Positions 12,179-54,076 of a stretch of DNA of 64,000 nt are shown here, piece by piece (position 1 is the stretch's first letter; each line of letters starts with the position of its first letter). The stretch spans positions 5,373,001 to 5,437,000 of the forward strand of contig NC_092578.1 in assembly GCF_037975245.1 (NCBI RefSeq), given 5' to 3'. A model generated the notes under the pieces. It saw nothing but the letters and a program-made list of their open reading frames with translations, was not told the DNA's origin and searched no databases. A program made the translations under genes and the position numbers. The DNA comes from Apostichopus japonicus. Lineage: Eukaryota > Echinodermata > Holothuroidea > Aspidochirotida > Stichopodidae.

Positions 12179-14757
12179 TCAGACCAAAGAACACCTTTGC
12201 TGTTCTACTTCGTTCTCAATGTCAACAAAGGTGTCATCATCAATATTAGGAACCGTAACAATCAGTGGCATTGTGAGCCACGTGAGGACCAGGCTGGCCC
12301 CTATGCTGGGTCACCGGGCAACCCTTAATGAAGTCGTCTTTTTAACTGAATTGAATTATGAAAATGGGAATATTTTTTATATATGTAAATGTTCCCTGGA
12401 CCCCAATTGTTTTTAGCTAATTAATCATTTAATCATTTTATTTTTAAAGGGGGTTCGTTATCCAAAAACTCGATGATTTTTCCCATGAGAGTAAAAAGTA
12501 AATTTCTGAATGTACTACTCTAATATCACAATTATAGAAAAATTGTCAATAGTATACAGTAGTAAATATGGGGGATTAAAAATTGAAAAGTAAAGGGAAC
12601 TGAAAATATGAAAGAAACTCATTCTGGGTATGTATATATATATCAACCCTTTTCCAATATTATTGTGGATGTCGATAGTCAACAAACTCTAGTCAGCCTA
12701 TGCACAGTCTACATTAAACTGACTAATCATGCTTATATGGGTAGATGAGAGCGCAATAAAAATAGTCAATAATGGCGAATAAGTAAAAAGCTGAAAAGGG
12801 CGCCAGCAGTCCATTTGAGCCCCCCTGACTGTATGGACGCTCCGCCACGGCTCGGCGGAGGTTGTTCGGTTGTTCCTATAAAAGAAATTACAAAAATACG
12901 TAATAGAATTGTTATTTTTTAATAAATTGTTTTCATATCGACAATGCAGACTTATGATCAAAATGCTTATGAAAAAATATATATACTTTGAACGGTCATT
13001 CGTTTGTACTTTTATAGGTGGTGTCGTTTAACTAACTACCGCCAAATACATTGTATGGGATATATTACGTAGAAGTGTCTCTAGCCAGTGGCGTGCACAA
13101 ATTTTCAAAAGGTGATGTGGGAAGGGGAACGAGGAAGGGCAGGGGTTGGTTCCCCTGTATTATATCATTTGTTTCTAAACCACAGATTATGTAATCCGTT
13201 GATTTGATTACATGATATCTTCATACCTTGACCTGGACATACAGGTATGGACCCAGTTGTTGTAGAGAATGCTTCTGCACCGTTAATGATTTCCATAGAG
13301 GAGGCGATAACCCGGAATTCGAAAACACCATCAGAAGCCACGATGCTCGCTGGAATGGTCACGTTCACAGCGACTTGCGTTGTCGTCATAGTAACATTCG
13401 GGAAGGCACCGATATAGCTGGAATTATCCGATATTTCTAAAATAAAATGTTCATGAAAAAAATATAGCTCTCTCAATTATCAATTCTCTTGAAGAAAACT
13501 GTTACCAGTGAATTATTATTCGATATTATCGAAAATTAAAATTAAACAAAGATGAAACCTACCGCTAATTAAGAGTGAAATAATTTCGGAATAGTCCTCG
13601 TCTCCACTGGCGACATCGATGACGACTGTAGCGGAAGAATTTCCTCCGGAAATTTTGAAACAAGTCTCTTCGATGGTAAGGATCGGTAGATCTGCTTCCG
13701 GTGTGATGGATACTGGCACATCGACACTCCTGGAGACGGTGACGCCGTCTGCGTCCGTCACTGTTGCGTTCACAGTAACAGTAAATTCGCCGGAGATATC
13801 CGGGATAGGGGTAAGAACTAAGTTTTGAGCCTGTTCAGTCGGGATAATCCAGGCCTCTCCTTCGCCTAATTCTTCTCCTATGTTTGCCTCGAACAGTCCT
13901 GCGAGATTTTCCAATCGGAGCTCAATGTCATCATCGAGAGTTGGATTCACCAGCTGGACAACCAGTGGGAACTGGAATGGCATGTCTTCCACACCGAACG
14001 CCGGTGAGAAGCCAATAATCGGTGGTTCCTTTGGTGGTGTGTCTGAATTTGTTGAAAGTTGAAATTTATACAAATGCGTGTTGATAACATAATAATTTCT
14101 TCTTTGTTTCAGATTAGAGATTACTTCATTGATTTCATAACCCTATATTTAAACTAGACTGGGTACCGAGACGGAAGTTGGCTCTCCCCCAATAAATACT
14201 TGATTAAAAACACCTAAACTAGTGGTCATTTAATTTTTTCAATGCTGTAGGCATTGTAGGTATTATTGAATGCAGGGGCGTCGAGCCAAATCGGGCCCCA
14301 TATTTTGAAGCCATGGTTTCCCTTGAGTTTATTATGAAGATGAAATTAAAATATTCTTTGACACATATTGTCTCGGGCCCTCTAACTATGCAGTTGAGTC
14401 GGGGCCACGGTGTTGTAGCTCCCTGACAAGCACCCCTCCTGTCCCCTCCTCCACGTAAGCAAACCATCTCAAGCCTGGTTCTGTATACTGTTAAGACCAG
14501 TAACTGCAGTTGCCTAGTAATGTTTTGACTGTGAACATAATGAAACCGGCGGGACAGTCCCCCCCCCCCCCAACTCCTCGGCCTGTTCTCTGTCTATCTG
14601 GGGTTTTTTGTGTCATGCTCCTGGTTTGGATAATTTAAGACTGTGTCAAACTTACCTTGGCTGCAATCGTCTCCGTAGCGGCCCTCAATACACTGACATA
14701 AGTTATTGTTAGTGCAATTACCAGCCCCAGAACAGTTGTTGACACCTGCGCAAGACA
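12179..14757 (-). CDS. C-terminal region of the giant protein: EGF repeat, cadherin-like modules, tail (exons 28-31)
   Basis: Exon 14656-14757 encodes one six-cysteine EGF repeat (CAGVNNCSGAGNC then LCQCIEGRYGDDC); the acceptor after 14757 was preferred to one 12 bp further in because it retains the first cysteine. Exon 13563-14042 encodes a cadherin-like beta segment (PAFGVEDMPF, TVTVNATVTDADGVTVSRSV) and the start of another, completed by 13227-13436 (IVASDGVFEFRVIASSM, SIPVCPG). The last exon (12179-12300) adds ASLVLTWLTMPLIVTVPN and an acidic tail ending CSLV, with TGA at 12179-12181. It fits in phase, but is supported only by splice sites and frame. If the donor at 13227 is not used, exon 30 reads through to a TGA near 13165. 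Confidence 0.68.
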
Positions 14758-17700
14758 CTGTTTGGTAACAAGGGGGAGAAAAGCAACGTTCAACTACTAA
14801 TTTACTTTCTACAGCAGAGATTTTTCTATGATAAAAAGGCCTAGACGTGATCAACACAGGCAAAAGACATGCGGAACTAGAAGAGTGTAATAAAGAAAAA
14901 TCGTTATGCAGGGAGGGGGAGGGGCAAACATGTGCACTATTTAACTTATATTGTACCGTTGCGTGGTACTGATCAACATCGTTGAACCCACGCGCTGGAA
15001 GGAAGCCTCTAGTTGCCGTGAAGTTCTGTGGTATATGACATTACCGGAGCAGTTGAACTGCTTGGAAGCGCAGTAATGAGAAATGTAAGTGTGGAATGAT
15101 ACAAATCTCTTGAGCGACGGCCATGATGGTGTACCGGCATTCTTGCATACAATTATGAAACTGTCATGGATAGACGTGCTTTAGATAAGCCGTGCTAAAG
15201 CATCAATGACGTCATCCTGAATGCCTTCATTATAGTATAGATACAGGCATATGCCAAATAGGATGATATCTTCAGTCTTTAATATATAAATAATTATATA
15301 TATATTTAGAAAATACATAGCCTAATTAAAATTGAATTGAATTTATTAATTTTTAAAAAATTAAAAAATATAATTATAAAATCACGTAGAGGTTGACCAA
15401 CCCGAGAAGTCAAGTTTCATGAGTTTTATAAATCAGACGACATTTACGCTTTTTAGTGTCTGCGTCTTCGACAAATACGGTTAGGCCCTATTAATAAAAT
15501 TACAATTCTCGATCTCCATTTTTTTTTTGTGAAAGTGTAATAACGGAACAATTTACAGAACATGGTTTGCCTAAATGATAATAAAGGATTTCAAATCAGA
15601 GATGAAAATAAACACTGAAGCGAGAGAGACAGATAGAAAGTACTAGGATAAAATCCAAATTATATGCACTGCTTGAAAGTGTGCTCATGAAGTCATGAAC
15701 TAAGATTTCAAGGAGCAATATTTAGAGCAAGAGAACTCGTGAGTTTCGGACAGCGTACAGCGAATTTGTGGGAAAGTGGGAAAGAGTGTAAGGAAAAGCC
15801 AATAATGCATAGAGAAGGAAAATGTATTATTAATAGAATCATCGTTACAACAAGATTGAGTCCTATATAGATTATGTTTAGAAAGTGATGATAGAGAAGA
15901 AATTTGATAAAACTAAGGTAAATTCCAAAATGGTCGGAATATATCAGTTTTGATTTTCTCTTTAGGCTTATATTGAACTGGAAAGGATTTGTTTTCGTTG
16001 TTTTTGTGTGAACATGCACTTACCTTCCGCGAAGGGAAAGATGACCGTCAGCGATGACGCACCCCTAGCCGCCGACCGGAAATTACCGACGTTATCTTCA
16101 GGTTGTAGGACAAGTTTATAAGTTGCACCACTAGGCACATCTAACACGACTGTCCGTTCGTTAGATGCACATGACTTCAAGAAACTGAGCTTGCCATCTA
16201 TATAGCGGAGGAAACCAAAAATGCAAGGAAGTCATTTAGTGTAAAGTATAGGTTTCTAGCGATAAAGTTGAGCTAACAAATTGAATCAATCCTCAACTCA
16301 CGACATGCACATGCAGCATTAACAACTAATTCCAAGTTTGTATTTTACAGGCCTCTGAATGCTATAATCGGAAGTAGTATCAGCCTAGTGGTAGAAGTAG
16401 GTATAGGAGACGTGAGGAGTGACGTCAATAATGTTATTTCGTTTAATACACTTTGTTAGTTTGATATGAGCCACAAAAAAAAATCAATCAAACAAAATAA
16501 GGGTTCAGTGACCCATCAGTTATGAAGAGATGGAGAGAGTGACCAAATTGAACAGGATAAAGTAATGAAATCAGGAGGAGAAGATGGAACTGGCTAGGAC
16601 ATGTGCTGCAAAAAGACAGGGCAGGCAACAAGTACATAGCCCTGGGATGGACCCCAGAAGGTTGAAGAGCAAGAGGAAGGCCTAAAACAACATGGCGGAG
16701 GACAGTAGAGAAAGAGAGGAGGAGAGCAGGCTGGAATAGTTGGAACGAAGCCAGGACAACAGCAGCGAACAGGAAGACGTGGAGGGAAGACGTCTCGGCC
16801 TTGTGTGCCTCTTGGCACAGAGAGCGTTAAGAACATGAAATATGATAATCGTAGTTCATTTCTGCATGTACATTCGTTTAACGATACATCATCACAAACT
16901 ATGAATGTCAAACGAATAGATAGTCTTGCTGCAAAACTGGAGACAATGTGCGTTTTAATTATTTATATAAAGTCTGGCAATTTTCGTGACATAACATGGT
17001 CTCATTAAGATGCGTCGAATGTTTCACTTATATAGTTTTAAGTCTACGAAATTGAAATGAATTGGTGATGATCAACGTTACCGGTATCGGAGTAAATGTT
17101 AGTAGTTTTTACACCGGCTCCTACGTCATTCAGTTCGAAAGAGAGCGCGAGAATGCCAGAGCTGATGACGTCATCGACTACACTGATATTGGATGCAACA
17201 GGAGAATCTCTGTCGATCTGATTAAAGGAAAGAGTACAAACTTGAATCAACTTGTCTTTGAAAGTTGCACTTCCTAACATAGACGGAGATGTAAAAACAT
17301 ACGAGAGATGGTAACACGTGTTATTATTTGTATACTATGAATCATATATATATATATATGATTCATGATATACAAATAATAACACGTGTTACCATCTCTC
17401 GTATGTTATATATATATATATATATATATGACTCATAAGATACAAATAAGGAGTACTGTTTTAGAAATTATATTGGAATGTTCGGTCCACCTGGGACCTT
17501 CATCAGCAAAATTGGCAGTGCCGAATGAAAAGTACAAAATGTAACAAAATTGAAAGTATGACGCTAGATAAGTGTGATTGGCACTGATGGAATTAGTACC
17601 AAATAAACCATGACTACACAGTAAGCGGATTAAGGAGCACAGAATAGGAAGAACGGATTACAAATATTTGTGGAACTAGTAGTTATTTAGTGGTCCCAAG

Positions 17701-20700
17701 TCTTTGTTGAGGCCGGTGATGTGGGACTTAATACGAATGATCCAAACCATTTCTTTCCGTACAGTTCCAGACTTGCAGTTAGAAGCAATTTAAATACATT
17801 TTAGGTTGTTGAGAGAAATTATGTGAAGATTTAAATATTCCGAAAGGAGGTATTCTGTAAAATTTTCAAGAATTGACTAAAAATCAATTCGTTATTCTTT
17901 TGATTTTTTTAGGTGTATACACGTGTAGTTTCTTTATAATATATTATACTAATTAAATATTCAACTGATGACAAAAAATGTAGATTGTCGAAAATATTGA
18001 ATAGAAATACAAATTAATGTCATTAACATATCATTTCAAATCAGAACGAAGTGTGTTGCTAGTGCATGTGCATCTCAGTATTCATACTTCTTCCGTTAAT
18101 CTTCAATGTACATTACCGTGTTAAAGATAGCTTCAGTATCAATTGGATCGTTGTTATCAAACACTATCCTAGCCTCAGCGTCAATAACGTCGTACGTTTT
18201 GGACGACGAACGAGGCCGCACAGAGTACGTCACAAAGCCTTCTCCGTCAGTTCCATTTTCCATGTTTGGTGGCAGAAAACCGATTCCGGGATCGACTGGA
18301 GGCTGACCTGTCCATATATTGGTATAAAGTATCATTTCAATGAGTTTTAATTGTCTTTTAACACTGTAGTAACACTCACATTATGGATCACTTGAAACCC
18401 TCATTACATAGGCTACCATGTAGACATTTTGACGAGGCTGTTACAAGTTTTGCCCTTTTCGGGCAAAGGAGAAGGGAAGGAAGGAAGGAAGGTAAATGAG
18501 AACCAGAGCAATGAAGAGGGGGAGGGGAGGGGTATTGGGAGTCGAAGGAGATGCAGCATGGGTGCCTTACACATGCACGACTGATTTATCTACATGATCG
18601 GTGCTTCCAAAATCTTGAATCAGGAATCAAGTCGACAGTTACAAAATCTATCAAAAGTTAGATTGGGAACGATAATTGTTTCTTGAGTCCTGGAATGGTG
18701 TTTTCAATGCCTTTTTATTTTTACTGTTTTGATAGATATTTAAAGCTCATTCATATATTCACAGGCTAGTTTCTGTTATAGCATATATAGTTGATCGTGC
18801 ACCTAATAACTTAGCCGGAGCATTTAATTACACTGACCTGTGTCAGGATTCAGTGTTTGAAGTTCCCACGTAGCTCTTCTGTTGACAAAATCGAGTCCAG
18901 CCGTAACCCGAACGACATATTCTCGATCATCGTCGAATTGAAGCGTCGTCTTAATAAAGGCAAAAGAGAAAGACAAATTATGAAGAAGAAGGAAAAATAT
19001 TAGTTCACAAAAGAAATGAGCTTACACAACAAGTGAAAATCCACTTTTCAGAAAATGACGTAACCTCGTGTGGTTATGGCGCATCAATAACATGCGACAT
19101 GATTGCCGACATGATTAGGCTGCCCTGTTTGGCATTGGATATGTACCAAAAAAACGTTCGCCCAATTTGCCATGTGAGTACGCATATATAAGAGAGGTTA
19201 TGTATGAATACTTATAACACTGACAGTTATCTTATAGTGAGCAAACAGAGAAAAGGAAAATGCGTACAGGTATGCATGATCTAAAATCTGCAGATCTAAC
19301 TTTTATTTTCGTGAGTCCTTCAGATCAATATACTTTCATGCGAATAATAATTGTAAAACCTAAACGTCATTTACTCGCAACGCGGAAAAGAACATCGGTA
19401 CGGTCAGAGCATTTAAAAAAAAAATTAATTGTGATGAAATTGCCATGATTATCTTATATTATAAAATACCTGTAATAACGAACTCGTAGAGCCGAGTTCG
19501 AATGTAAAGTTGCCAAATCCGAAATTACCCAGACGAAACGTTGCTATGTCGACATCGTCATCCAAAAATGTGTCGATGGTCACCAGTTGGGCAGGTGCCG
19601 TTGCATTTGCCATGTTTTCAAACCTTATACGATATTCAAGAGTATCGTCTGCTGCAATGAATCGTGCATCGCCGAATCCAGACGGTCCTATAATGTCATT
19701 CTGCAAATGATAGTATAAGAGTATTAACTAAAACTGTGATCCGCTCACAGATTTTCTACCGGTCATAGCTATAGTTCATAATAATGGTGGGCTTTCGTTT
19801 CAATTTGTTCGATCGTTATAGTGCTGACGTACATTGGTCAATAGTGTTGGGCTCCCGACCAACGGTATGTTGTCAGAGCTAGGAGCATATTGTAAGCACA
19901 AAATGGTCAGCTAGATTTCTATTTGTTTTGTAACGACATTCAGTTCTTAATGTAGTTTGTTGAAAAGAATTTATCTGTAGTTCTTCGAAACGACTAGGCC
20001 TATATGTGTTTTCTCTTTTCTGTAAATGTTACAGATCTTGTAGAAGAATTAAGTATATCAAAGGAAATGATGGATGTCGTTAGTGAGATCTTCAAAGCAG
20101 CAACGTTCCGATGTTGTACATCGCTTGCAAAGTCTCGAAAACGGTACACAGGAACTTAAAGCAAATTTCAACTGAATGCAAAGACTGTCAGGCTGCCTTA
20201 CTCATAGGTCTTAAAGGGCATGAAGACTTTGGAATTTTTTTGCATTTCCAGGTGGCCTCAGATGCAATTTGGTGCAATATAGCACACTTCAACACCCACT
20301 CCATTTTGTAAAGAATTTTGCATTTTCACCTGGCCTTAGATGCAATTTGGTGCTTCAAATGAGATTTTTTTCTCATTTGGAAATGAAAAAGGGGTTTTCT
20401 GACTTGCGGAGCGGGGGGGCGGAACGATACTTCCGCCCCCCATATTTTTCACTGGGGGGGCTGGCGCCCCCCAGCCCCCCCGGTTCCTACGCCCTTGCTA
20501 GTGTATACAGTCAGTACATACAGCTGCGGTCAATACCAACAGCACAGTGTACAAACGATACAGCGACGGACATCTCGGGTCCAGCTAGAGATAACAAGGT
20601 ATCATATTTCATTACTGTCTGCACATTGTAGCGACAAGAGAAAAAATTCACTCGCAAGCAACGGAAAGTTAACTTATTAAAGATGGCGGCACGCTGTTTG

Positions 20701-23700: not shown

Positions 23701-24722
23701 TGATCAGCGCCGTCGTAGCGAACGTTCCATGTTCCCTGGGTAGTATTGATTTCTTGCCTAAGAAATCGTTGATTGTAGCCATAATCAAATTGAGAGACAA
23801 CAGTAGATCCGCAGAAATTCAAAACTCGGGTAAGAATTGATCCACCTGTCTTATAGGCATAGGATGTTTCACATCCGTTTGGAAATGTTCGCTTAGAAAT
23901 AGGACCACGCTGATCATATTCAACATTAACGAGGTTTAATCCAGTTTGCCCATCTGTAACATTGATAACGCGATTGAGCGTATCATAGGAATACTTGGAA
24001 TGGTAGCCCTCGCCATCACGGATAGCTATTCGTCTGTCCTGATCATCATAATCGTAGGTGAAGGTTTTGCCGTCTGGGTACTGCACCGTTCTTGGCGCAC
24101 CAGAAGATGTATATGTTATCTTGATAGTGCCGACACCATTTGTGGCTTCAGTCACTAAACCTCTGTCATTGTACATGAAGAATACATCATCGTCTTGCTC
24201 ATTGGCTCTTTCAACGGTAATCCCTTCCTCGTTTACTTGAAAGGATGATGTTAATCCGTTTCGATCACGCCCTCCAACCAAAAATCCGTTTTCGTCGAAG
24301 GTTCTGTTTTCAAATGTACCATCTGGATAAACAATTGATGCAGTATTCGTTTCCTCGTCAAGATTGTATTCATACCGGTTATTATTCCCATCTATATACT
24401 CAGTAAAAGGCTGGAAAGATGTTCTAGTGAATGTAATTACGTCGTCATTACCATCGTAGACACGATGGATATTTTGTTCGATATCGTACTCGCGTCTCTC
24501 GGCAACCTGAAATATTGAAGAAGAAAAAGTATTCACAATTATTTGTAGTTCATCAATGAATTGTCCAATTTAATGGTGCAATATTGTTTTTTATCAGTTT
24601 AGAGTTTATATATTTTTCAACAAAGATAAAAACAAATATTGCTAGTTGTAATATAATGAAAGTATAAATTGCTTTGGTTTATGCCTTAAAGGAAAGACAT
24701 AGCTAGACCATTAAGCTTTTTT

Positions 24723-24771
<49 letters not shown>

Positions 24772-36700: not shown

Positions 36701-39700
36701 CTATGCAGTACATACTAACATGAGTAAAACAAATCAAAGAAAAATCAAACCCAGCTGGCAGATGCAATAGCTGAGCCTAACGAAGTCACATGAAGTAGAA
36801 GTATTTTTCTTTCTATTTGAGTTCGTTGGGGGGGGGGGGGGGCCTTAGCAGCGGTCTTTATCTGTTAGTTCTATAGTTATAATTGCCTTAGTCGTCACCT
36901 GATTCACAAGCGTGTATAAATCACAGTATTCCATAATAAGATAACGTAAACAATAGAAATGAGAAACAACATAACACATCCGTACAATGAAATAACTTAT
37001 AAACCGATGTAATTGACGCTGTTAAATGGACAACAACAGACACATTTTAACACATGTCACGTATATACTACATATAGGCTGCTTATAGACAATCATTTAA
37101 CAGTAGTTATAATCACTTACCAGATAGTCACGTGACTTGGTGATTTCTTGCCAATATGAGAAGAAACTTTAGATACAAGATTCTAACGAGCTGAATTGCT
37201 GGGCATAAATGGCAAGTCTTGCAGAATTGAGTAATACTTACCTATGCAAACAGGGTCGAAGGTCAAACAAACTTCACTTCTGCATAATAAGACTTATTAT
37301 GACTGTAACCAACAATTGACATTCAACGACCTTCGACCTCCATGGAAAACACAAGAGCCCAAGGGCACTATGGTTCCTTGCTTATAAAGACTAAGCTCTA
37401 TCCTAAAATTGTTATTTCCGGGTTTAATGTACACAAACAAGACGACTGCTATAAATATCACAAATCAATGATTGGCCATTTTGTTAATCTGTTGACTTTT
37501 GTTAGATTTGTTTATAGACTGTACTTAATAACTTTGGTTGCACATTTACCCATGGACAAGTTTGGTTACTCATGGACCCATAGTTTGGTTACCCATGGAC
37601 AATTACAATATGGCCACCAAAATTCAAATATTCAACTTAAAAATAACTAATACAGGTCACTGGAGGCGCTATTCCAAGGTTATGTGAGGTCAACAGAGGT
37701 CCACCTCTCAAAACCAAACAAAACCTTGACCTCTGCTAACGTTGCACATGAAGATCGCACAGGGGCCAACCATGGACAATTTTGATCAGTTTTTAGGAGA
37801 TTGAGTTTTTGACCCATAATTGACCTTTGTTGACCTTGGATCACATAACCGTTATGTTCGGAAACAATCGCTTACCCTATTCACAACTAATCCCAAAATG
37901 TCAATCATGTCGGACCCCTTGAGTGGCAGTTTCACCAGTTATTGCCAAAAAAAACCACACATTTTGAGCCATAATTGACCCTTTGGTGACCTTGGATAAC
38001 ATAACGGTTATTTTTGGAAAACTTCATTCACAACTTGTCCCACTATATCAGCCATGTCAGACTTCGTCACTGGAAGTGGTTGCAAATATTAGCATGTGGG
38101 CATTTTTTGCCCATAAGCGACCTTGAATCACCTTAGATGGCATGACGGTTTTTATGAAAAATGTTCCCCTTGATGATGTGCACTCGATCCTAAACTTGTT
38201 ATACACTCAACCCATGGACAATCATGATCGGAAGACCATTTGCGATCTGAATATGGCCACAAAAATTCAAAGAAACTAATACAGGTCACCAAATGTCAAC
38301 CTTAGGTCAAAGGTTACAAAGATGCGGGTCGACTAATGGATTACAATAGCGTAACTCCCAACCTTGAAGGACATTTCATTCTCAAGTTTTCTCAAAAATA
38401 CTAGTTTTTGACCTCTAATTGACCTTGTTGACCATGGATCACACGACTGTTTCATTTGAAAACGATCCTCTACCCTATTTACAACTAGTTCCAAAATAAC
38501 AAAACATCTCGGACCCTTTCAATCATGGGAGTTATTGCTTTGTTTATTATTTTGGTTTTTGGCCCCTAACAGACCTTTGGTGACCTTTATAGGCACCGAA
38601 AACAATAAGACACACCTTCTTACTATGGCGCATGTAAATACCAAGTTTGAGTGAAGTTCAACATTTCCTAGCTGAGTTACAGTGTACCCAAGCAAGTGTT
38701 ACAGACACACACACGCACGCCAAGTTGACTACATGTTCCTTTTGCTAAAGCAAGGAACCAAAAGGGATCATTTGCTCACCAAGGGCTACCAACATACAAA
38801 GTTTAAAGTTCAAGAAACTTCAGTTCTTGCGATATCATGCATACAAGTTTTTCAGACTTTGACCTCTGGTGACCTCAAATGACTTTGAACTCCATGAAAA
38901 ACACTAGGGATCATCTGCTTACCAAGGGCTACCTACAAACCAAGTTTAAAGTTCAAGCAACTTCCACTTCTTGAGATATCGTGCTGACAAGGGTTTCAGA
39001 CAAACTTTGGCCTCTGGTGACCTCAAATGACCTTTGACCTCTATGACAAACACTTGGGATCATCTAATTACTAAGAGCTACCAACATACTAAGTTTAAAG
39101 TTCATTCAACTTTTACTTCTTGAGATACCATGTTTACATAGTTTTCAGCATTTGACCTCTGGTGACCCCACATTACCTTGGACCTCAATGAAAACAATAA
39201 GGATCATCTAATTACTAACAGCTACCAACATACTAAGTTTAAAGTTCAATTAAATTTTACTTCTTGAGATATCATGTTTACATGGTTTTCAGCTTTTGAC
39301 CTATGGTGACCTCAAATGACATTGACTCCCATTCAAAACCATAAGGTTTACCTGCTTACAAGGGCTTTCAACACACTAAGTTTAAAGGTCATTCAACTTT
39401 TACTTCTTGAGATACCATGTTTACATAGTTTTCAGCCTTTGACCTCTGGTGACCCCAAATTACCTTTGACCTCCATGAAAAACAATATGGATCATTTGCT
39501 ATCCTAGGTCAATCCCCAGTTAAAGTTTAAAGTTCAAGCATTTTGTAATTCTTGAGATACCGTGTTTACATTGTTTTCCGCCCATGACCTCTGGTGATCT
39601 CTCAAATGACCCTTGACCTCCATGAAAAAATAGAGAACATCTACTTACTAAGGGCTACCCACATAATAAGTTTGAAATTCAGAAACTGCTACTCCTAGAG

Positions 39701-42700
39701 ATATTGTGCTTACCAAGTTTTTCAGACTTTCACCTCTGTTAACCTCAAATGACCTTTGAACTCTATACAAAACAACAGGGATCATCTACTTACTAAGGGC
39801 TACTTACACACCAAGTTTGAAGTTCATTCAACTTAAACTTCTTGAGATATCGTGTTTACGAGCCAAGCGTCACATACACACACACGCATACACACTCGCG
39901 CCATCACCGTCGCATAGATTCCTTCGGCCTTCGGCAAGGAATCAAAAAAGTACTTTCTACCTAAGGTGTGATACTGTGTGACTATGGGGTCACGGCACAC
40001 CCAACATACTTCCTTTCTATACCTAATTCTACGCGTAATGGAAAATTGAGTCCGTCACATGTAGCTTGCTTTCCAGTTGTTAATGATTTTCCCAGAAAAA
40101 TTAACATGAAGTACCTAGTATAACAAGATATAGATTGCCTTCACTACAGGGGTTTTGTTTGAGCAACGAATGCCTATATCAACCGTAATGGTGTGGATGT
40201 CTATGTCATCTACTTGAAATGCGCGAACGGAAATTACCTTTCAGGGTATCTCACGGCCTAAAACCTATAGTATATATATGCAGAGTACAACCAATAGAGA
40301 TAAAATATACTTACCCAACGTTATCACGTGGAGTGAAACATAGTATTTCCTCTACACCAATGGTTTGAGGTGTCCATGTTACATTCACATGATAGTCAGT
40401 CGGTAGGCCACCAGGATAAGGCAAGACACCTGATTTTAGCACTCCTGGTGGTGATACTGTGTCAATATCTGCAATACTGTCATAACGAGAAATATATCAT
40501 ACCTTTGTAAAATGGTTTTTATACACCTCACTGCAAATGAAATTAATAAAAATATATATATTATCATTAAATTTACTCTTTTCAGCAGCAAATCAGCTTA
40601 ATGTGTTTTCCGATCAGTTTGGGTGTTTGTAGGCGATATATTTTCGTGTTTGTATTGTGTTGTGCGTGTATTTGTTTCTCCCTTTTGTTCAGGGAGTGAT
40701 CTACTCCTGCATGCATGTCTTCCTGTCACATGACTGCTTCATGTTCTTTATACCACTTCGTTTCTGTGTGATACGATGAATCAATTGAACTGAGTATACC
40801 TGACGTCTTCAGAACCAGTTCTTGCAACAATCGGCTCATGGTAAGTACTGTTTGCAGGTACGCCTACACACGATCCCGAACTTCTTGTCGGAGGAATAAA
40901 AACAGGCTGAGAGACACACGATTCATCGCTAGAAAACAAATCAACCAGGAACTGCAAAGGTATCTCACTGAGAACCTCTGTTGAAGATTGGGTGGCAAAA
41001 TCCTTAATTTCAAGAGCAACTCCGTACAATCCAAGAGAGGTGGATGTATCGACATCCCAGACGAGTTCACAAGTTGTCTGTAACATGATTGCAGGACTGT
41101 GTAAAGAGTTGTGTTCAAGAATTACAAGGAAAACGCACGTTAGGGTATCAGTATAGGACGTTACTATATATCAGCGTGTGAGGACGAAATGGGGGGAGGG
41201 GAAGATGCCGCAAATATCAAAGTTATTTTGAATTTCTATATATTGAGTGCGACATTAAAATTATTTTAGACACAGACCAGCTGCCCCTTTATTCATGCAT
41301 ATATAGATGAAAGGGGAAAAACAAGGGTAGGTTTATTACCTCAATCACTTCGAACCCACCTCGTTAGTTCAAACACTATTTGTTTCGTGCTAATGAGCAA
41401 TTACTGTTTCAACAGTTAAGGCCAGTTTAAACTAATTCATCCATTAATTTGGGCACAACGTTAGAGATAAGATTCACAAAGACTTAAGCAATTTATCACC
41501 TAGCAAGGTGCTATAAACGCATCTCTCGGCCAAAGGGAAGCCACGTCATGGTGTAATGACATTTAATTAGAAATTAAATAACATATACTGCGTAGGGAAG
41601 GTCGTGGCCGATTGTTTCAAGATGATAATTCTGTGCACACTGCAGGTGTCGAATCGCATTTCATGTTTTAAAAGGTTAGTTAAAACTAAAGTCATCGTGT
41701 GCACTGCTTATTTAATTCCAACTGTACCCTTTTTTGCTTGTTTTGGGGGATTTTTTGGGGGTTTAGGGTGTTCCTTTTTTTTTGTAACTGGGGAACTGCC
41801 TGTAACAATACATTTGATTCTGCGTTTCCAAGTATATAATCTGGGTGTTTACTTTGTTATTACCCTTGAATAAAATACTATTCTGAACTGAAACCATGCA
41901 CTTCCTTTGCACCGTTGGAAGACAATAAAAGCGTCGGGTGTCACGGTCTACCAACGAAATCAATTACGGTAACGTAAAGTAAATGACACGCTGTATAGTT
42001 GTGAAAAGGCTTCATAACCCTTAAAAAGATACTACTTAACCTTGAATTTCGTGGTTGACAAAGACATGCAGTTACTTTTAACAACAATGATGCCTCAGTG
42101 CTCTCCATAAACCTTATTGAACCCGTCTGTTTGCTTTAATTGGTTTGAAAAAAATTGTTTACCATTCGAAACTAAAATCTCACAACAGCACAATCTTAAG
42201 CGCTATTTGTTCGTCATGCCATATAATGAAGAAAACTCCCCCCCCCCCCAACCAAAAAAAAACAAGTGTTGTATGATGAGTCCAGTACTAGGTGATAATT
42301 TCTGTAGGTGACGATATGTCATAAGGTAGAATGAAATCATAAGACTTTTTCTATTCGTTTGGTGACAACATCTTGCTTGCCGTAGATGGTGATCATACAC
42401 TAAAAGTTTCTCTACACATGCATACATATATTAATGCATACATAACACTGTTGACTGGCAGTGACTTCAATGTTGTAACTTTAACCTGAATGGTTAGCGA
42501 CCATACATACATGAAGGCATTTGCGCAACGCCACTCAGCCTAGGCCTATATATAGTCTAGAGCAGAATTTGACATATCCACCAAAACTTGTGTAACACGC
42601 ACTGCATTATAAATGAAGACCGACAGAGTGGAGAAGGAGGAGGCTCTTTTGTATACCCATGGAGCTATAAACAGCTCCATGGTATACCCAAGTACCGAAA

Positions 42701-45700
42701 CCTCGTGTTTCATTAGCCGCCGCCCATCGTGGGCGGCTATATTGTGCTTATACAAATGGCTTCTTTGTGAACAACACGGCACATCGCTGCTCACAAGACA
42801 AAAGATATTACATACTTCATTCAAGACCGCTCCTGGTAAACGGTTGCAGATACCCCCGCATCTTCTTGTGGCCCAGAAGCACCTTACGTCATCTCCATCC
42901 GGATCATTAACTGACGCAGATAAAAAGAAAATATATTGTGAAAGGTTACCCAAATATTCTTCTCTTAATAAAGTGCCGGAGAAGCTTGTGTCTTAAAAGC
43001 TTGGTTTTTTCTTAGGTTGTACGATTATGCAAACGGTGGGAAAAAAAAGGAAAATAGGAAGATAATATAGCTTTTTGACACGTTTGTCGGATTTTTTTTA
43101 ATTAGAAGTTGAGAAATATTGAATGAGCACAGTGTACATGGGGCGTAGAAGGGATAGCGACAGCAATAAGTTGATTTTACAGGGTGAGCGCAACTTATGG
43201 GAATCAATATGCTTTCGGGAAGTCATTCTAACAAGTGTTTCCACACAACACCTCATCTCTTTCAAAATGTGCACGAAATGATACGAATAATATGTCACAG
43301 CTACATTTGTAAAGAAAATCTCGGGGTGTGTAAGGTAAACACCCAAGTTTAAGAATATATTACTCCAGTTTCACAGAAACCCGTAGAGCGTTGTAACTTG
43401 TTCTTTTATTGACATAGGCCTATGCAAACGTGATATAGCTCCTGGACAGTTATAAAAATGCAAAAACAGTGCAATTTAAACTGCTCGATGTATTTAACTT
43501 ATTTCCATATTACAAAAGCTTGAGTATAGTCCTTTTGTGAGAGAACTCACGTTATCATAAATAGAAAGGCTGATTCTCGAAAATACCAACGTGTCCTTTA
43601 AACGTTAAGGCTGTGAGTATTCCCCCCCCCCCCTTCCCTCCACCCGGCCACTCTTTCTTGGGATGGAGACATTCAACATACAAAAAGTTAGTCCCAATTA
43701 TGGTAAATTTATGTTAAGATTCATTATATGTATAATGCTTAAAATGGAATATGCATTTTGAGTTGGACTACATAGTCTATAGCTTGATCACATTGTCCTC
43801 CTAAATCCAATCAATTTATTAGTTATACCCTCAATCAAGCTAATTTGCTTGTCACTGGTTTACGAATTAGTAACTGGTTTGATACATCCCACTAATTTTA
43901 ATGCATTCTTTCATTGAAAAACAAGTATGCCAATTTTAACATCTTTCGTGTGGTTGTGGTGAAAAGATTACATCTTCAGATACATGCAGGTCTTGTCTTA
44001 GAAGTTAAATAACGTACGGTACGTGGTAACGGCAGGTTTGTAGTAAATCCAACACAAAAGGACACTATTATAGTGGTTTCGCGAATATTTTATAAGTAAC
44101 CGCAGACGGAAATGCGAACCGACTATAACTGAGCCATGCAATGAAGTCAAGTTTACGTGTCTTTACAAACATAAAGTTGTTAGTAGCTGGTGTTTTGGGT
44201 AATGTAAGTATTTCGAAATAATTTGCACATAACCCAACGCATCGATTATACGTATTAAAGATATAAACTTTATGCTGGATATTAAAATGTCCTAGGAGGG
44301 TCATATCTGATTTCCTAGTCGAAATGTACAAAGATTAGGCAGATTAATGGTCATCTTCAAATATCAAAATTAAATTAAAATAAAACAACAACCATTATCC
44401 AACAGCTTATCCACTTGTGTGAGCCTGTGTACGAGAATTAACCTATCAGTATTCTGTGCTTGTATTTTGTCCCTTGCAGTTTATGATACTTGTCATTCAG
44501 CATCTGAAGAAGATCCTGGTAGGATCGAATCATCAGGCCAACTCACTTTTACAAATCTTCAAATATCATATGATAATGATATGCGGATGTGAATAAAATA
44601 CTCGGCTGTAGAATACCTCACATGCAGTAATCGAAGAATTAAAGTTGCTTTAATTTCTAAACATCTGTTAAACCAGGGAGGATTTAAAAATGAAACATGC
44701 ATGCATGCAAACCTAGCTTTCTTATTCTTTATAGGTTAAACAACAAAGCGTTTCCGAGCCTACCAGTGTTTACTTACTGGTCAAATGTAACTAGAACATT
44801 TTAATCGGTGGCTTAAAACACCTCAAAATAATTCGCATTCCGGCGCTATAAGATAAATACCATCGATGCAAATATTTCGTGAACATAGATTAAAATATTA
44901 AAGTGTTATGCAAAGTATGTTTAACGGTCCAATAATTTCTTTGACGCTCTACCAATATTAGCTTGCGAATTTAAGAAACGCGGTTTTACCTGGTATTGTG
45001 ATGGAGTTATTGCATTCACGTTGAAATCGCACAATAGGCATTGTGGTTGTAGTCGGTGATGAGTTGATACGTCCGGTGTCGTTTCGAATCGTTAAATCGA
45101 TTATGGCACCTAGATTCCAACCTGACCCACCATTTCGTAAGGAAATCCAACAGCAGCCTGAAAACCTAATGAAATCGTTCACTTACTAATGTACTCTGTA
45201 GTCAGTAATTCTGTCAGCGGTTGGGATACGCTGTTAATGGCTGGGTGCAGGGGCCCACCAAGAGGACAAAACGCTGGTGTGTGTTTAGTAAGGGGCCAAC
45301 TCAACAAAGTTGATCAGCGTTTTCAGCTATTCATGTTTTATTACAGAAAACGTATGCATCACGCTGTACGATTGATGTTAACTCGCGAGCGATTTATAAA
45401 CAGAACATGACACAGAAGCAAGGAAGAATAACATAAATAGTGCAGTAACCGTACAAAGAATAGCTATATTTGAAGCAGCAAAGTCTCAAGTTCTCCTGCA
45501 AATTGTCAAAATTGTGTAAGATAAGGAACCTTATTATCAAATCACAACATAATTGGTTTTGCCAATTAGTTTTCGCAAGTCACTGATTTTGTTTTGTTTT
45601 GCCGACCTCGGTTAACCTTAGACAGTTAGACCTGTTCATCTTAATCTGTAAAACGTAAGTAAGATCCGTTATATTACAACCTGTAGAACTATGAAACTGA

Positions 45701-47739
45701 TACTTTTTAAACTAAGACTAAAACTAGGACATGGAAAAAAAGCAAAAAGAAATTTAAAGAAGAGTAACATAAATAGTGCAGTAACAGTATAAAGTATAGC
45801 TATATATGAAGCAGCCGTTATAACTCTATTTCATCTTTACATTACGTTTCCATTGAAAACCACTGTTAGAAACTGTTAGCATATCACATCTGTTTTATAC
45901 AAAAATAAATTTGATGAAATAACGTAACGATGTTATGCTACTATATACAACGAGATTTGTTGGCTATATAATTATACTGAAAACTTATTTAATATACGCT
46001 TCAATTATTTCATCTAGTTATGTTAAATGTAATACTTACCATACTTCGAATGTTGTTGTCGAGGGCTGGTACTGAAATGAATTAATTCCAGTAGACCAGT
46101 CTTCTGTGCTACTGAAATCAGTACAGATATAAGTCAATCTCTGAGAAAGACCAAAACATGTACATGACAAGCCTCCTTCCCCAGATATTACTTCACGGTT
46201 GGCAATGCTTTCGTCAGTGCAAAAATGTCCACCAGCACTCCGTCTCCACGCCATACGGTATGAGACTTCGATCTATTCAGACAAGAAATGTAAGCATTTT
46301 GTATAAAATGTGACTACTTTAAGAAACTCACTTAACTCAGAAGAATATCTTGAACGGAAGCCCGTCTTCGAAATAAAGCTCTCCGTGTATATGATTCACA
46401 CAAGTGCAACCATTATATATTGCTACTATCTGCAGCACCGCAAGTTAAACTAGATTTATATCAGAAAATGCTTTTCCTGAAAGAGGAGTCACATAAAGTG
46501 ATGAATTCGTAATTGATACTTTATAAGTGCGGAATACATATAATTTTATTTTAACTTAATTAAAAATTTTCGTCTAGATTTATATAACATTTTCTGAAAA
46601 TGTTGAAATGATTAGGACTAATACAATAAGTTCAACTGTTTGCACCAAAATGGTAAGATATTTTCGCTTTTGTAATTAATCAATTAACGACAAAATGATT
46701 ATCTCACACAATTAAGTGATTGTCTCCTGCAAACTGCAAATTATTAAAATTTCGAAGTTTTTTTTTTAGGTTACAGTGCAAGATAAGGAACCGTATAATC
46801 AAATCACGGAGATTGTGAATTGAAGGAAATAGGTTTGGCAAATAGTTTTCGGAAGTCACTGTTTTTTTTTTGGCGACCTCGGTTAACCTTAGACAGTTAG
46901 ACCTGTTAATCTAAATGTGCAAAACTTAAGTGAGATCCGTTATATTATAGCCTGTAGAACTATGACCTTTTGCAACTGATACTTTTTAAACTACTGTAAG
47001 ACTATTAAAACTAGGACATGGAAAACTATAACTTTGAAACCTGTGGAACAATGGCTTATAAAACTAGTACTTGTCGAGCTAAGACCCTTAACTAAGACTG
47101 TTAAAACTAGGACCTGTTAAGCTAGGAATTTCAAAATTTCTGAAAACATGGCTTACAAAACTAATACTTGTGAAGCTAAAAAACCTGGAAAACTCATGCT
47201 TCCAAAACTAGGACCTGTAAAGCTAGGAACATTAAAACATGTGAGACCATGGCTTATAAAACAAATATACTTGTTAAGCTAAGACCCGTAAACTCAGACT
47301 TTTAAAACTAGTGCCTGTGCAACTAGGAAATTTAAAACCTGTGAACCCATGGCTTATAAAACAAATATACTTGTTAAGCTAAGACTCGTAAAACTATGAC
47401 CTGCTAAGCTAGGACATTTAAAGACAAATATCTTAAATTTGTTCAAATAAAAGTACTATCTTTAAGCCGTAAAGGGTGAATGTAACTATGATTGAGATTT
47501 GAGATTTTCCCGCCATTCAACAATATGGACCCTATGTGACTTAAATATGGCCTAATTTTTAAGAATAAGAGAAACAGTCACGATTCACTTACCAGTGGTA
47601 GAACATTGGTCTGATTGTTGTCTGATTGTATCAATGGCCGCCATGATATAATTCCACCTCTGAAATGAGAAGCTCCTGCCTCATTCGCGAAAAGAGATAT
47701 CCACAAAACGAAGACACATGTAACCCCACTGGACACCAT
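12179..47739 (-). CDS. giant secreted CARDB/RHS-repeat protein of bacterial-type architecture, 31 exons, about 4,045 aa
   Basis: Coding exons, 5' to 3': 47593-47739, 46040-46272, 44990-45165, 42816-42910, 40800-41077, 40315-40476, 36546-36586, 36225-36322, 35715-35973, 35129-35383, 34355-34627, 32631-33815, 31918-32213, 31144-31302, 27170-30930, 26511-26644, 25642-25891, 24822-25200, 23322-24506, 22708-22811, 21363-22177, 20807-20901, 19470-19700, 18838-18949, 18117-18307, 17082-17217, 16024-16197, 14656-14757, 13563-14042, 13227-13436, 12179-12300. Every border is GT/AG, every phase matches, and the total (12,138 bp) is divisible by three. Domain order: signal peptide; FRGGIISW domain (24-370); Ig/HYR (380-800); about nine CARDB (930-2150); RHS linker and YD barrel (2300-3160); RHS core ending DPEG near 3251; Gly/Ala-rich post-core (3255-3425); NDIIGP module (3461-3740); EGF (3742-3776); cadherin-like (3777-4005). 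No internal transmembrane anchor is obvious, so it is probably secreted. The function is unknown. The last exon and both ends are least certain. Confidence 0.85.
12743..12848 (+). mobile_element. 3' fragment of the CAGTGGCGGAG MITE family
   Basis: It shares GAGAGCGCAATAAAAATAGT and the GGGCGCCAGCAGTCCATTT block with 8054-8452 and ends at GCTCCGCCAC. The left half is missing. It lies in the last intron of the giant gene. Confidence 0.7.
16024..20901 (-). CDS. post-RHS NDIIGP beta-module of the giant protein (exons 22-27)
   Basis: Exon 20807-20901 encodes an acidic linker ending ELRWVRSIDP. The next exon (19470-19700) begins NDIIGPSGFGDARF. Joined, these read VRSIDPNDIIGPSGFG, which matches the start of a module I know from large bacterial surface proteins (DPND-hydrophobic-GP-GFG). 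Following exons keep the order of that module: YRIRFENM with ATAPAQLVTI, TFRLGNFGFGN, VTAGLDFVNRRATWELQTLN, DPGIGFLPPNMENG with GFVTYSVRPR, AEARIVFDNNDPIDTEAIFNT, DRDSPVASNI and the closing Ig-like QPEDNVGNF. The order and phases make it very unlikely that this is a separate gene. Confidence 0.85.
16572..16808 (+). mobile_element. 5'-truncated non-LTR retrotransposon, 3' end of the ORF
   Basis: The plus-strand frame reads RRRRWNWLGHVLQKDRAGNK, then LGWTPEG, a TGA stop, RARGRPKTTWRRTVE and NEARTTAANRKTWREDVSAL. This is the conserved C-terminal tail of RTE/CR1-like reverse-transcriptase ORFs (WLGHVLR, TWNPQGKRKRGRPK, WR). The in-frame TGA and the lack of any RT core show a dead fragment. It sits in an intron of the giant gene, in opposite orientation. 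Confidence 0.8.
17296..17407. repeat. near-perfect 112-bp inverted repeat (hairpin/cruciform)
   Basis: The left arm from AACATACGAGAGATGG through AACACGTGTTATTATTTGTA is mirrored on the right by TACAAATAATAACACGTGTT and CCATCTCTCGTATGTT. The centre is a TA run flanked by ATGAATCAT/ATGATTCAT. Only about two mismatches are seen in arms of roughly 50 bp. It directly precedes the retroelement-like motif at 17481-17506 and lies in an intron. Confidence 0.85.
17440..17530 (-). mobile_element. Penelope-like element remnant with degenerate hammerhead-like core
   Basis: On the minus strand CTGATGA (17500-17506) is followed by a stem AGGTCC...GGACC and then GAAC (17481 onward). This is the strand order of a hammerhead ribozyme core (CUGAUGA, stem II, GAAA) as reported in Penelope-like elements. 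One A of GAAA is missing, so it is probably inactive. The element type is inferred from this motif and the adjacent inverted repeat only. Confidence 0.4.
20211..20723 (+). mobile_element. TTAA-flanked MITE, copy 2, with internal insertion
   Basis: It starts TTAAAGGGCATGAAGACTTT and ends GAGTCTTCAATGCCTTTAA, with the same right half as the element at 3924-4276 (CTAGTGT...CAGTC, ATAACAAGGTATCA, GTAGCGACAAGA, GGAAAGTTAAC). The segment from about 20240 to 20505 is an unrelated G/C-rich insertion with a repeated GATGCAATTTGGTGC block. It lies in the intron just after the RHS-core exons. Confidence 0.7.
21363..26644 (-). CDS. RHS/YD-repeat barrel, RHS core and post-core segment of the giant protein (exons 16-21)
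   Basis: Exons 26511-26644 through 21363-22177 encode a full RHS shell. YD repeats include YTYDLTE, YSYNAYG, TYDISGNTG, DYDDQDRRIAIRDGEGY, YSYDTLNRVINVTDG, YDQRG, IAYDGAGNRRSM and YNYNAMG. They are followed by the RHS-associated core: FSYDPFGNI, FKFSGQ, SGLYLTRTRLYNAKIGRFVS, PDVFG, NLYLYAKNNPYSFVDPEG. In bacterial RHS and Tc toxins this core caps the barrel and self-cleaves near DPxG, releasing a variable C-terminal domain. Here the roughly 170 residues after DPEG are Gly/Ala-rich (GKAAIGAVVGLGTYAV, WEGAAWAAVTGAV) and then basic, like a pre-toxin linker; I recognise no toxin fold or nuclease motif. The frame continues into further beta modules rather than stopping. Confidence 0.9.
24726..24769. 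repeat. (TA)n microsatellite in an intron
   Basis: About 44 bp of TA dinucleotides between exons 18 and 19 of the giant gene. Confidence 0.9.
27170..33815 (-). CDS. CARDB array of the giant protein (exons 12-15, including a 3.76-kb exon)
   Basis: After another HYR-like stretch (DNEAPVVSNL, CGNVVGAQQ) comes a fibronectin-like segment, then about nine repeats of a roughly 110-120-residue beta module. Each has a PDL-type start, an ISWEVSNVG core, a YLSQD-like strand and an NNxxxS end. Cores visible are ISWEVSNVGQMG, VRWSVDNVGFG, VSWEVRNAGNG, LNWTVTNVGPG, LTWFTVNVGN, VSWRVTNVGN, IRYEVQNMGAS, FRYNVTNVGPA and IDWVVENLGLQ. This is the CARDB signature (cell-adhesion-related domain of bacteria and archaea). 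Exon 15 (27170-30930) alone holds over six. It ends with a PPC-like module, an IPT-like module (IMDIKPRQVAPLGM), and the RHS lead-in FGRGWKSLWW. A 3.76-kb internal exon is exceptional beside its neighbours of about 100-300 bp. Confidence 0.88.
34355..36586 (-). CDS. Ig/HYR-like segment of the giant protein (exons 7-11)
   Basis: Five short exons encode roughly residues 364-673. They contain beta-sandwich repeats of the big-domain/HYR kind: NPPEINFTSLEPPNGAL with VVFTFDQE, then DVTPPVLVF with WSVNEPANSTC and TDTSGNIG, then DTTAPEVEI with ATDDVGNTG. The DTTAP...D.GN.G pattern is typical of HYR and bacterial Ig-like modules that mediate adhesion. Exon borders fall in phase 1 between several modules, the arrangement that allows exon shuffling. 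Several NxS/T sequons are visible, consistent with secretion. Confidence 0.8.
37300..39950 (+). repeat. intronic repeat block with about seven 145-bp tandem units
   Basis: Within the 3.7-kb intron between exons 6 and 7, the motif GACCTCTGGTGACCTCAAAT recurs at 38861, 39010, 39154, 39298, 39441, 39586 and 39731, a period of 143-149 bp. Each unit also carries GGATCATCT, AAGTTTAAAGTTCA and CTTCTTGAGATA. A related but more diverged region (37.3-38.6 kb) shares TGACCTTTG-type blocks. Margins show CA-rich stretches and hairpin-like ends (GCAAGGAACC near 38745; TTCCTTCGGCCTTCGGCAAG near 39918). No ORF is supported. Confidence 0.8.
40315..47739 (-). CDS. N-terminal region of the giant protein: signal peptide plus FRGGIISW domain (exons 1-6)
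   Basis: The start ATG at 47739 opens a 23-residue signal peptide with a hydrophobic core (VFVLWISLF) and a likely AGA/S cleavage site. SHFRGGIISWRP follows directly. Exon 2 adds IEVSYRMAWRRS and a Cys-rich stretch, exon 3 GCCWISLRNGGSGW and GRINSSP, exon 4 VNDPDGDDVRCFWA and GAVLNE, exon 5 LYGVALEIKDF, exon 6 NVTWTPQTIGVEEILCF. I recall this series as an extracellular domain in uncharacterised proteins of cnidarians and amphioxus; I know no bacterial counterpart. For exon 3 the acceptor at 45165 was chosen over one 6 bp further into the exon because only it keeps phase and gives FEVWFSGCCWISL. Introns are long and repeat-filled. Confidence 0.85.
44490..44560 (+). repeat. diverged copy of the hammerhead-like/Penelope-like motif
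   Basis: It reads CTGAAGAAGATCCTGGTAGG, then ATCGAATCATCAGGCC. The same element terminus occurs in the 1.58-kb array (TGAAGAAGATCC, GGATCGAAACGTCAGGCC on its minus strand). Here the GAAA is GAAT. It lies in an intron of the giant gene. Confidence 0.45.
45476..45740 (+). repeat. dispersed repeat, second copy at 46725-47020
   Basis: Both copies share ACCTCGGTTAACCTTAGACA, GTTAGACCTGTT, GATCCGTTATATTA, CTGTAGAACTATGA and AACTAGGACATGGAAAA in the same order and orientation. They lie in the first two introns of the giant gene. The repeat family is unknown. Confidence 0.75.
46990..47420 (+). repeat. about 100-bp degenerate tandem repeat
   Basis: ATGGCTTATAAAAC recurs at 47051, 47148, 47249 and 47349. 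Between these lie variants of GACCTGTTAAGCTAGGA every 15-20 bp, so a short motif is nested in a roughly 100-bp unit. It lies in intron 1 of the giant gene, close to its start exon. Confidence 0.75.
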
Positions 47740-53105: not shown

Positions 53106-54076
53106 CATCTGCACCCGGCGGCGTACGTCGCCAGTTTCGATTGGGTGTATAGCGGCTTCGAAACCGAATAGCTCTTTTGAAACCCCAATGCATAGGCTGA
53201 CCGAGCAACCTTTTGAAAAATACTCCAACAACACCGGCAATTTGTTTTATCATAAAGCTGTTGCATTTATAAAAAAATATATATATTTAAAAAACTGTTG
53301 CATTTATAAAAAATTAAAAAAAAAAAAAACTGTTTCTCAGAGCTCTAGTGGCGATCCAGGGGCAAAGCCATCGAAGCTGCAGCAATGTTAAGCATTTCTT
53401 GTTCTCTGGCAGCGAGTTTAAGGGTCACCAGGATTGCTTCCAAATATGCTATAAATTCAGATAATGGTCACCCATGATCAAATTTCAACAAGCAGTTTAC
53501 TGTCCACTTTATAACGTAACTTTACATTGCGACATTGAATGGTCCTTATTAACACATTCCTGAATATCTGTGAATAAAAGTAGAAGAATCAGAAACTCTA
53601 GGCAAGTATGCTGTTGTAAAATTCTAGCAATTCTTAGCGTGCTAAAAGTTTAGGGCCAATGCTGATAAACTTTTTAGCACAAAAATACATGATAGAAACA
53701 GAAATTCAATCTCTCTGGAATTAAAGTTCAAAGCCGCTGTGGATTTTCTTCCCCTTGATTTTTGCTTTATTACACTTACGTTCATCGGTGTAAGACCACG
53801 CGGAATTTGGCTACGATTTTGAGATGGCCCGGCATCGATTTGAGACCAGCTTTGATTTTCATTGCGGCGACGGGGAGGGGTGGGTACCACAATGCATCCA
53901 CCTGTCGCCTGTATGTACGCCCCTGGCTGGGTCGTATCGAGAAAACCCGTTTTACTTCGTTGTCGTTCAGTTCATTTCGCTTCAACGATCATTTGCATTT
54001 GTAGTTTAGTTACTATGTTGCTTAATTACAATATAACCAACGGATCAAAGAGATCACTATACCATGCAGCTGTCTG

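Follow-up and report, generated by a model that had tools for sequence, protein, structure and literature searches.

A giant gene of Apostichopus japonicus carries a bacterial-type CARDB, RHS and DUF7619 core between animal-type ends

Introduction

That a bacterial shell can become an animal receptor is well known from teneurin. The T6SS Rhs proteins are delivered effectors that carry a toxin at their terminus. In the literature, teneurin is described as a type II protein whose EGFs lie ahead of the shell, with TTR, FN-plug and NHL domains, a Tox-GHH end and a self-cleavage motif that has been lost (PMC13018210, PMC6425310, PMC9935623, PMC3482391). PMC9935623 further reports that one Arg and two Asp are required for self-cutting in Tc- and SGS-type Rhs shells, and that teneurin is without the last Asp whereas SGS retains all three residues. 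The original prediction made for the DNA analysed here named teneurin as the known RHS/YD protein of animals; mosquito SGS1 is another, as that paper describes (PMC9935623). Here, we analyse a gene in a window of Apostichopus japonicus DNA, the window being the whole stretch of 64,000 nucleotides under study.

Results

The contig that holds the window is 20.4 Mb long, in a genome totalling 671.6 Mb, and six-frame reading showed long exon-like frames in the window. Using a splice and codon model guided by the Holothuria protein P0001, we placed a single gene on the minus strand (13227..47739; all features below are on this strand unless stated), running from 47739 to 13227 in 30 exons with 12,004 coding bases. 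All 29 introns of this model are GT-AG, the 4,001 encoded residues contain no internal stop, the exon matches to P0001 are collinear across the gene, and the stop codon lies beyond the modelled 3′ end. A chance origin is excluded, because relatives align over 3,668–3,942 residues and the gene has an intact, constrained tandem copy. The giant RHS/CARDB gene recognised in the original prediction is therefore confirmed by the open 30-exon model, the relatives and the Pfam matches. Its start at 47739 coincides with the modelled ATG, its 31 exons become 30, and its end at 12179 found no confirmation: the possible 3′ exons proposed there in 12179..12875 (one starting at 12875, the other at 12305–12179) are candidates only, and the tandem copy does not conserve the acceptor of the one at 12305.

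As to details of the model, exon 20584–20522 of an earlier version was omitted because the Holothuria junction DPND requires 20901 immediately ahead of 19700, donor 22708 was chosen over 22687 following the P0001 alignment, and exon 13436–13227 was used in place of an alternative modelled terminal exon. We dropped a low-exon-cost model as an over-prediction (310 exons), a second model that extended into both flanks, and a strong homology bonus that stretched the exons. Between 13.2 and 9 kb, where a C-terminal membrane exon might lie, the hydrophobic frames that we found were all unsupported. Elsewhere in the window, repeat units of about 1.55–1.58 kb occupy 48700–53200, upstream of the gene, and are also present beside the second copy; an intronic tandem repeat of 144 bases (7.6 copies) lies at 38759–39859; and three plus-strand exon-like frames at 720–3585 match TsaD, one of them below the Pfam cut-off.

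The encoded protein begins with exon 1 (47593..47739), which contains the ATG, a hydrophobic, signal-peptide-like start (residues 1–23, hydropathy peak 1.73) and the start of an N-terminal segment that we call the N-cap (residues 24–380, exons 1–8, 36315..47670). The scan of P0001 displayed no Pfam name for the N-cap; a profile of this segment matched 0 of 132 non-family sequences and all 22 of P0138–P0159. Big/HYR-like domains follow (residues 381–850, 33283..36314; HYR_4C 1.8e-6 and a segment profile) and make up, with the N-cap, an N-module that extends to about residue 850. Nine CARDB modules occupy residues 929–2033 (28489..33048), as indicated by PF07705, by our own segmentation, which sets module starts at 929, 1052, 1176, 1298, 1425, 1541, 1666, 1785 and 1907 with a spacing of about 122 residues, and by matches to bacterial arrays; in the big exon, Pfam itself resolves three CARDB stretches (E 1.2e-19). 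A post-CARDB stretch and a linker ending in FGRGW (residues 2034–2472, 27170..28488), which includes the helical end of the modelled CARDB exon, lead into the RHS/YD shell with its RHS core (residues 2473–3280, exons 16–21, 21808..26644), identified by Pfam, sequence search with P0001, structural modelling and fold search. The post-core segment (residues 3281–3458, 20813..21807) is the fastest-changing part of the protein. Behind it come DUF7619 (residues 3459–3640, 17212..20812; PF24595), a further Big-like domain (residues 3641–3741, 16025..17211; profile matches in 24 of the 132 sequences at E<1e-3), an EGF-like domain on a single phase 1-1 exon (14656..14745; EGF_2 0.0048, below the Pfam cut-off) and a C-terminal Big_9-like region (residues 3772–4001, 13227..14042; Big_9 0.027, also below the cut-off). 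The Pfam scan of the window covered ten ORFs at E<=1 rather than the assembled protein, and in it RHS_repeat (4.5e-13), DUF7619 (5e-8, on the NDIIGP exon) and HYR_4C exceeded the cut-off. The predicted succession of about nine CARDB modules, FGRGW linker, RHS core and NDIIGP module was thus borne out, the last (DPNDIIGPSGFG module) being DUF7619.

A host-genome search with the big CARDB exon as query recovered a tandem copy on the same strand of the contig, at coordinates about 74.5 kb lower and outside the window (C18:5346216 to 5310784). All 30 exons were matched, exon 21 over 808 of 815 bases and exon 29 over 473 of 480. The two copies are 98.7% identical in coding sequence, with no stops and one gapped codon, and are under purifying selection (dN/dS 0.36; 71.5 synonymous and 83.5 non-synonymous changes). 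The post-core segment carries 27 non-synonymous and 9 synonymous changes, a dN/dS of 1.01 compared with 0.27 over the remainder (Fisher p 0.004, on rounded counts and for a segment picked after seeing where changes cluster). This value fits a relaxed spacer and a working part equally well. The segments also differ in their identity to Holothuria P0001, which is 27.5% for the post-core, 51.8% for RHS and 75.3% for DUF7619, the most conserved of them; across four relatives, the post-core of the window protein is 17–28% identical. Outside the coding sequence the two copies are 99.6% identical over the 5′ part and about 92% identical past the 3′ end; judged from this pattern, it looks as if the copies had been partly homogenised.

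Relatives were collected by several searches. The RHS region matched 942 proteins among 7,994 scored (120 listed), and the top two among the matches listed were Holothuria leucospilota ‘Teneurin-3’, at 46% over the whole region, and a protein of Mytilus californianus. When the N-terminal 930 residues served as query (18 matches among 1,821 scored), two crinoids, Anneissia japonica and Antedon mediterranea, were recovered as well as P0123. The N-cap as query (24 matches among 1,903 scored) brought in Oculina patagonica, a coral, and P0148, and listed neither Anneissia nor P0123. As each search missed relatives that another recovered, the set of at least seven proteins besides that of the window is a lower bound, and it is uninformative about absence from other animals. 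Holothuria, Anneissia, Antedon, Oculina, P0123 and P0148 share the whole layout, as does Mytilus except that its N-cap is shortened. Identity to the window protein is 54.6% over 3,942 aligned residues for Holothuria, 34% for the crinoids, 30.5% for Mytilus and 28.9% for P0123. Instead of a private capture by one lineage, we find an old family represented in three named animal phyla. P0123 and P0148, known as proteins only, would require 12.7 and 12.8 kb of coding sequence, and their contigs are no longer than 16.2 and 14.1 kb, which leaves scant space for introns between the parts. The Holothuria record is titled ‘Teneurin-3’, yet its scan gave no teneurin domain above the Pfam cut-off. Our search of the openly licensed literature, which mostly excludes subscription journals, found no description of the family.

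The tails vary by lineage. By hydropathy, a strong C-terminal hydrophobic helix is present in three of the eight animal-type sequences, namely both crinoids and Mytilus, and was not found in Holothuria, the coral, P0123, P0148 or the 4,001 residues of the window protein, whose 3′ end is incomplete. The Mytilus helix follows a weak SEA match, the coral tail carries ShK and that of P0123 carries TSP1.

To locate counterparts of each segment, we built profiles from six animal-type sequences and ran them on 132 further sequences (P0003–P0120 and P0124–P0137), all of whose names, where given, indicate bacteria or archaea. At E<1e-3 the CARDB array matched 21 of them, the linker 42, RHS 118, the post-core 4 and DUF7619 42, while the N-cap and C-terminal profiles matched none (P0085 was borderline for the N-cap, at about 1e-3). 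Linker, RHS and DUF7619 occurred jointly in 40 of the 132 at E<1e-5, in 20 of them together with CARDB; RHS without DUF7619 is also common (76 of the 118 RHS sequences). From a scan of named genomes, the best 80 loci of a larger set were retained. Among their 126 frames of at least 700 residues, 80 contain RHS and 37 contain linker, RHS and DUF7619, distributed over Planctomycetota (13), Cyanobacteriota (9), Thermodesulfobacteriota (4), Chlorobiota (3), Verrucomicrobiota (2), Pseudomonadota (1), Methanobacteriota (1) and unassigned sources (4), and none of these 37 matches either cap at E<1e-3. Two loci titled archaeal (L044 and L046), from metagenome-assembled genomes in which binning errors are possible, encode the RHS–DUF7619 combination. 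Eight frames of the best 80 loci match the whole CARDB array (E 4e-140 or better) plus linker, RHS and DUF7619: four are cyanobacterial, three come from Chlorobiaceae and one from Pseudomonas akapageensis, and their whole-core scores of 1,250 to 1,619 bits are the best in that set. Cyanobacterial sources of the full core include Nostoc, Crocosphaera and Nodosilinea. The top match, a frame of Nostoc sp. FACHB-973 (L021, 1,619 bits), repeats the animal succession of CARDB array, linker, RHS shell and DUF7619; along it Pfam gives, in this order, Calx-beta, eight CARDB stretches, fourteen RHS stretches and DUF7619. Unlike the animal gene, it is an intronless single frame with Calx-beta ahead of CARDB and no match to the N-cap; it exits its locus after a Big-like part. 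CARDB array, linker, RHS and DUF7619 thus match bacterial single-frame proteins, and the segments do not all fall within ordinary metazoan families.

Phylogenetic analysis rested on four trees, none with animal teneurins among its sequences: RHS from 122 sequences (6 animals), linker–RHS–DUF7619 from 62 (6 animals), RHS from 42 (8 animals) and a mixture-model tree of 24 (8 animals). The animal-type sequences form one clade in all four, and the eight in the mixture-model tree do so with 100/100 support. In the 122-sequence tree the animal clade groups with 47 bacterial sequences (100), and the nearest bacterial sequence, P0093, is placed with the animals at 90, 98 and 94 in the 122-, 62- and 42-sequence trees. 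An AU test on the 42-sequence tree does not support nesting of the animals inside the bacterial DUF7619 sequences: a tree that keeps these together, with the animals outside, outscored that of the unconstrained search by 15.7 log units and is not rejected (p-AU 0.763). The bacterial DUF7619 sequences may therefore be a clade, and the trees point to no specific donor lineage. We infer a bacterial origin from the bacterial breadth, the absent caps and the module order, and not from a resolved donor. The best reading of these comparisons is that the core would have been captured before the coral–bilaterian split; transfer between animals is possible, as the branching order within the animal clade is not resolved in the 24-sequence tree.

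The N-module also occurs apart from the core. Two of the 22 further N-cap proteins (P0138–P0159), P0144 and P0148, are family members, and the other 20 gave no matches to the CARDB-array, RHS or DUF7619 profiles; the linker profile matched two of these 20 (P0150 and P0158). In most of the 20 core-free proteins the alignment runs from residue 50 of the window protein to about 820–847, ending before CARDB at 929. HYR is mostly present in P0138–P0159, two of which are named bivalve proteins, and by eye P0138, P0139, P0145 and P0158 show EGF-like cysteine stretches together with two furin-like sites, and one of the four carries SRCR. Introns are sparser in the core (14, or 1.71 per coding kb) than on either side of it, where the N part has 11 (3.99 per kb) and the C part 4 (3.71), a modest contrast between core and rest (binomial P 0.021) with segment boundaries set by us. 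All four introns of the C part are in phase 1; the corresponding figures are 4 of 14 for the core and 5 of 11 for the N part. Together these sequence patterns suggest that an N-module and an EGF-bearing tail would have been fused onto the bacterial core.

To compare the shell with solved structures, we modelled the RHS exon at 24506–23322 (395 aa, pLDDT 93.4), a single exon that forms part of the barrel. In Foldseek, bacterial Rhs proteins were best by E-value, with TMq 0.75 for 7q97 and 0.79 for three 8qja chains, and other Rhs chains ranged from 0.32 upwards; teneurins gave 0.30–0.46, the teneurin-like protein 9ifo 0.53, SGS1 0.54 and full Tc shells 0.61–0.74. The sequence search with P0001 had bacterial Rhs at the top (1.5e-24) and also reached 9pt5, titled ‘Teneurin-like protein’, as well as mosquito SGS, with no animal teneurin chain at E<=0.01. 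A model of the CARDB exon (pLDDT 76, pTM 0.37) was uninformative, with TMq 0.08–0.15 among the 50 matches listed.

Autoprotease-type residues were assigned by the rule given in PMC9935623: Arg3222, Asp3227 and Asp3251 (GRFVSPD...DPEGT, 21895..21984), with a predicted cut at 3255/3256. All three residues are present in seven of the eight animal-type sequences, P0123 having His at the first Asp. The residue preceding the predicted cut is Leu in only two of the eight, and a hydrophobic stretch directly after it is found in the window protein and four others and is missing in three. Counts of these residues by text pattern in 42 bacterial sequences were unreliable: one gave no motif in 21 of the 42, and in another 27 were readable, 19 of them with all three.

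Discussion

We consider it probable that a giant bacterial gene was captured before the cnidarian–bilaterian split, fused to animal sequence, invaded by introns and kept as a giant extracellular protein with a likely role in adhesion or recognition. An ancient horizontal capture with introns and eukaryotic ends had been proposed from the window alone, and it gains support from the bacterial core, the single animal clade and the core-free N-module. The captured gene would have comprised CARDB array, linker, RHS shell, post-core and DUF7619, and it would have come to lie behind an animal N-module and ahead of the EGF-bearing tail, gaining introns. In this protein, the CARDB array may act as a stalk that holds the N-module away from the shell, and the shell as a sealed scaffold. 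If the site is placed as in SGS1, the Rhs core may cut after Asp3251-PEGT to give halves of about 356 and 80 kDa. These would stay joined, with the post-core threading out of the shell; it must exit, because conserved domains come after it, and the teneurin linker likewise exits its shell, according to PMC6425310. Where a membrane-type helix exists, as in crinoids and mussel, the C-terminal half would anchor the protein. The hydrophobic N-terminus and this C-terminal helix may point to a type I arrangement, on hydropathy only and with the window C-terminus incomplete. By analogy, the most likely role would be surface adhesion or recognition comparable to that of teneurin, with the chain running in the opposite direction relative to the membrane. 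Defence, symbiont interaction and adhesion, the roles first proposed for the protein, are candidate functions.

Other accounts of the origin fit the data less well. Animals could in principle have donated the core to bacteria, as the root is unsettled and the AU test permits the animals to lie outside the bacterial DUF7619 sequences; this is very improbable given that linker/RHS/DUF7619 frames without caps occur in at least six bacterial phyla and one archaeal record, and that RHS so often occurs without DUF7619. The patchy list of animals and their long branches might suggest several independent captures from bacteria in separate phyla, an extremely improbable course, since the animals form one fully supported clade that recurs in all other trees and the N-cap and C-terminal profiles made from six sequences also match the coral and P0148. 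Practically no weight attaches to bacterial contamination or an assembly artefact: the core sequence is bacterial in type, but the gene has 29 introns, a 20.4 Mb contig around it, a tandem copy with every exon and relatives in other animals.

Concerning the kind of protein, the title of the Holothuria record implies an ordinary teneurin paralog. The YD shell fold is shared, the database assigns the teneurin YD-shell Pfam to P0001, though also to most bacterial sequences listed, and the single EGF weakly matches teneurin EGF models below their cut-offs, and just below in P0123 (20.9 of 24.3 bits for the teneurin-like model PF23106). However, Pfam detected no Ten_N, TTR, FN-plug, NHL or Tox-GHH in P0001, P0002, P0122, P0123 and P0144 (E<=0.1) or in the ten window ORFs (E<=1), the EGF comes after the shell, the last catalytic Asp is retained, and the P0001 search finds bacterial Rhs, 9pt5 and mosquito SGS and no animal teneurin at E<=0.01, all of which makes a teneurin paralog highly unlikely. 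The main rival to adhesion or recognition is cargo release, in which a secreted defence protein or effector would conceal a fast-changing post-core in its shell, to be cut and released like bacterial Rhs toxins or SGS1. It would account for the post-core being the sole segment with dN/dS near 1 and so poorly conserved among relatives, for the autoprotease residues in seven of eight sequences and for the SGS1-like hydrophobic stretch past the cut. We nevertheless regard it as unlikely, given that Pfam finds no toxin domain in the exon frame with most of the post-core, that the chain continues into DUF7619, the most conserved segment, and that three of the eight sequences are without the hydrophobic stretch.

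Returning to the ancient capture of a bacterial gene, a bolder version of it is possible, if somewhat doubtful: a domestication of an Rhs cocoon separate from those of teneurin and SGS, before corals and bilaterians split, yielding a self-cutting two-chain surface receptor whose 356 kDa part, with stalk and shell, would be joined to the 80 kDa tail only by a threaded, diversifying segment while shell and tail stay fixed. A separate old capture whose module order and catalytic residues are still near-bacterial would serve as a replicate for asking which features domestication always alters. The donor-type architecture persists in cyanobacteria and other phyla. The analysis also gathers proteins titled ‘uncharacterized’, ‘hypothetical’ or ‘Teneurin-3’ into one family.

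Among known systems, the shell is matched best, in sequence as in fold, by T6SS Rhs proteins (7Q97, 8H8A, 8QJA), which have neither a CARDB array nor eukaryotic caps; the A. japonicus chain does not end in a toxin, instead running on into DUF7619 and EGF, and no toxin Pfam appeared in the ten window ORFs. Mosquito SGS1 (8FJP) shares with it an animal Rhs/YD shell, the Arg-Asp-Asp residues and a post-cut hydrophobic segment, and has its own beta-propellers, lectin and carbohydrate-binding domains and Tox-SGS without a classical signal peptide, in an account that makes no mention of CARDB (PMC9935623). Pfam scans of the ten window ORFs and five relatives gave no beta-propeller or Tox-SGS names, and Pfam may hold no Tox-SGS model. 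Teneurins, which occur in animals and choanoflagellates, and bacterial teneurin-like proteins share with the A. japonicus protein an RHS/YD shell of bacterial origin within a giant protein that has EGF, and a YD shell with an Rhs core is present here as in teneurin (Pfam, one-exon model and fold match); the A. japonicus protein differs in its CARDB array, in an EGF placed C-terminal to the shell and in keeping Asp3251. This kind of protein is already known from teneurin and SGS, and the family differs from both in architecture, flanks and retained catalytic residues; besides teneurin, bacteria seem to have given animals another type of cocoon-shaped protein.
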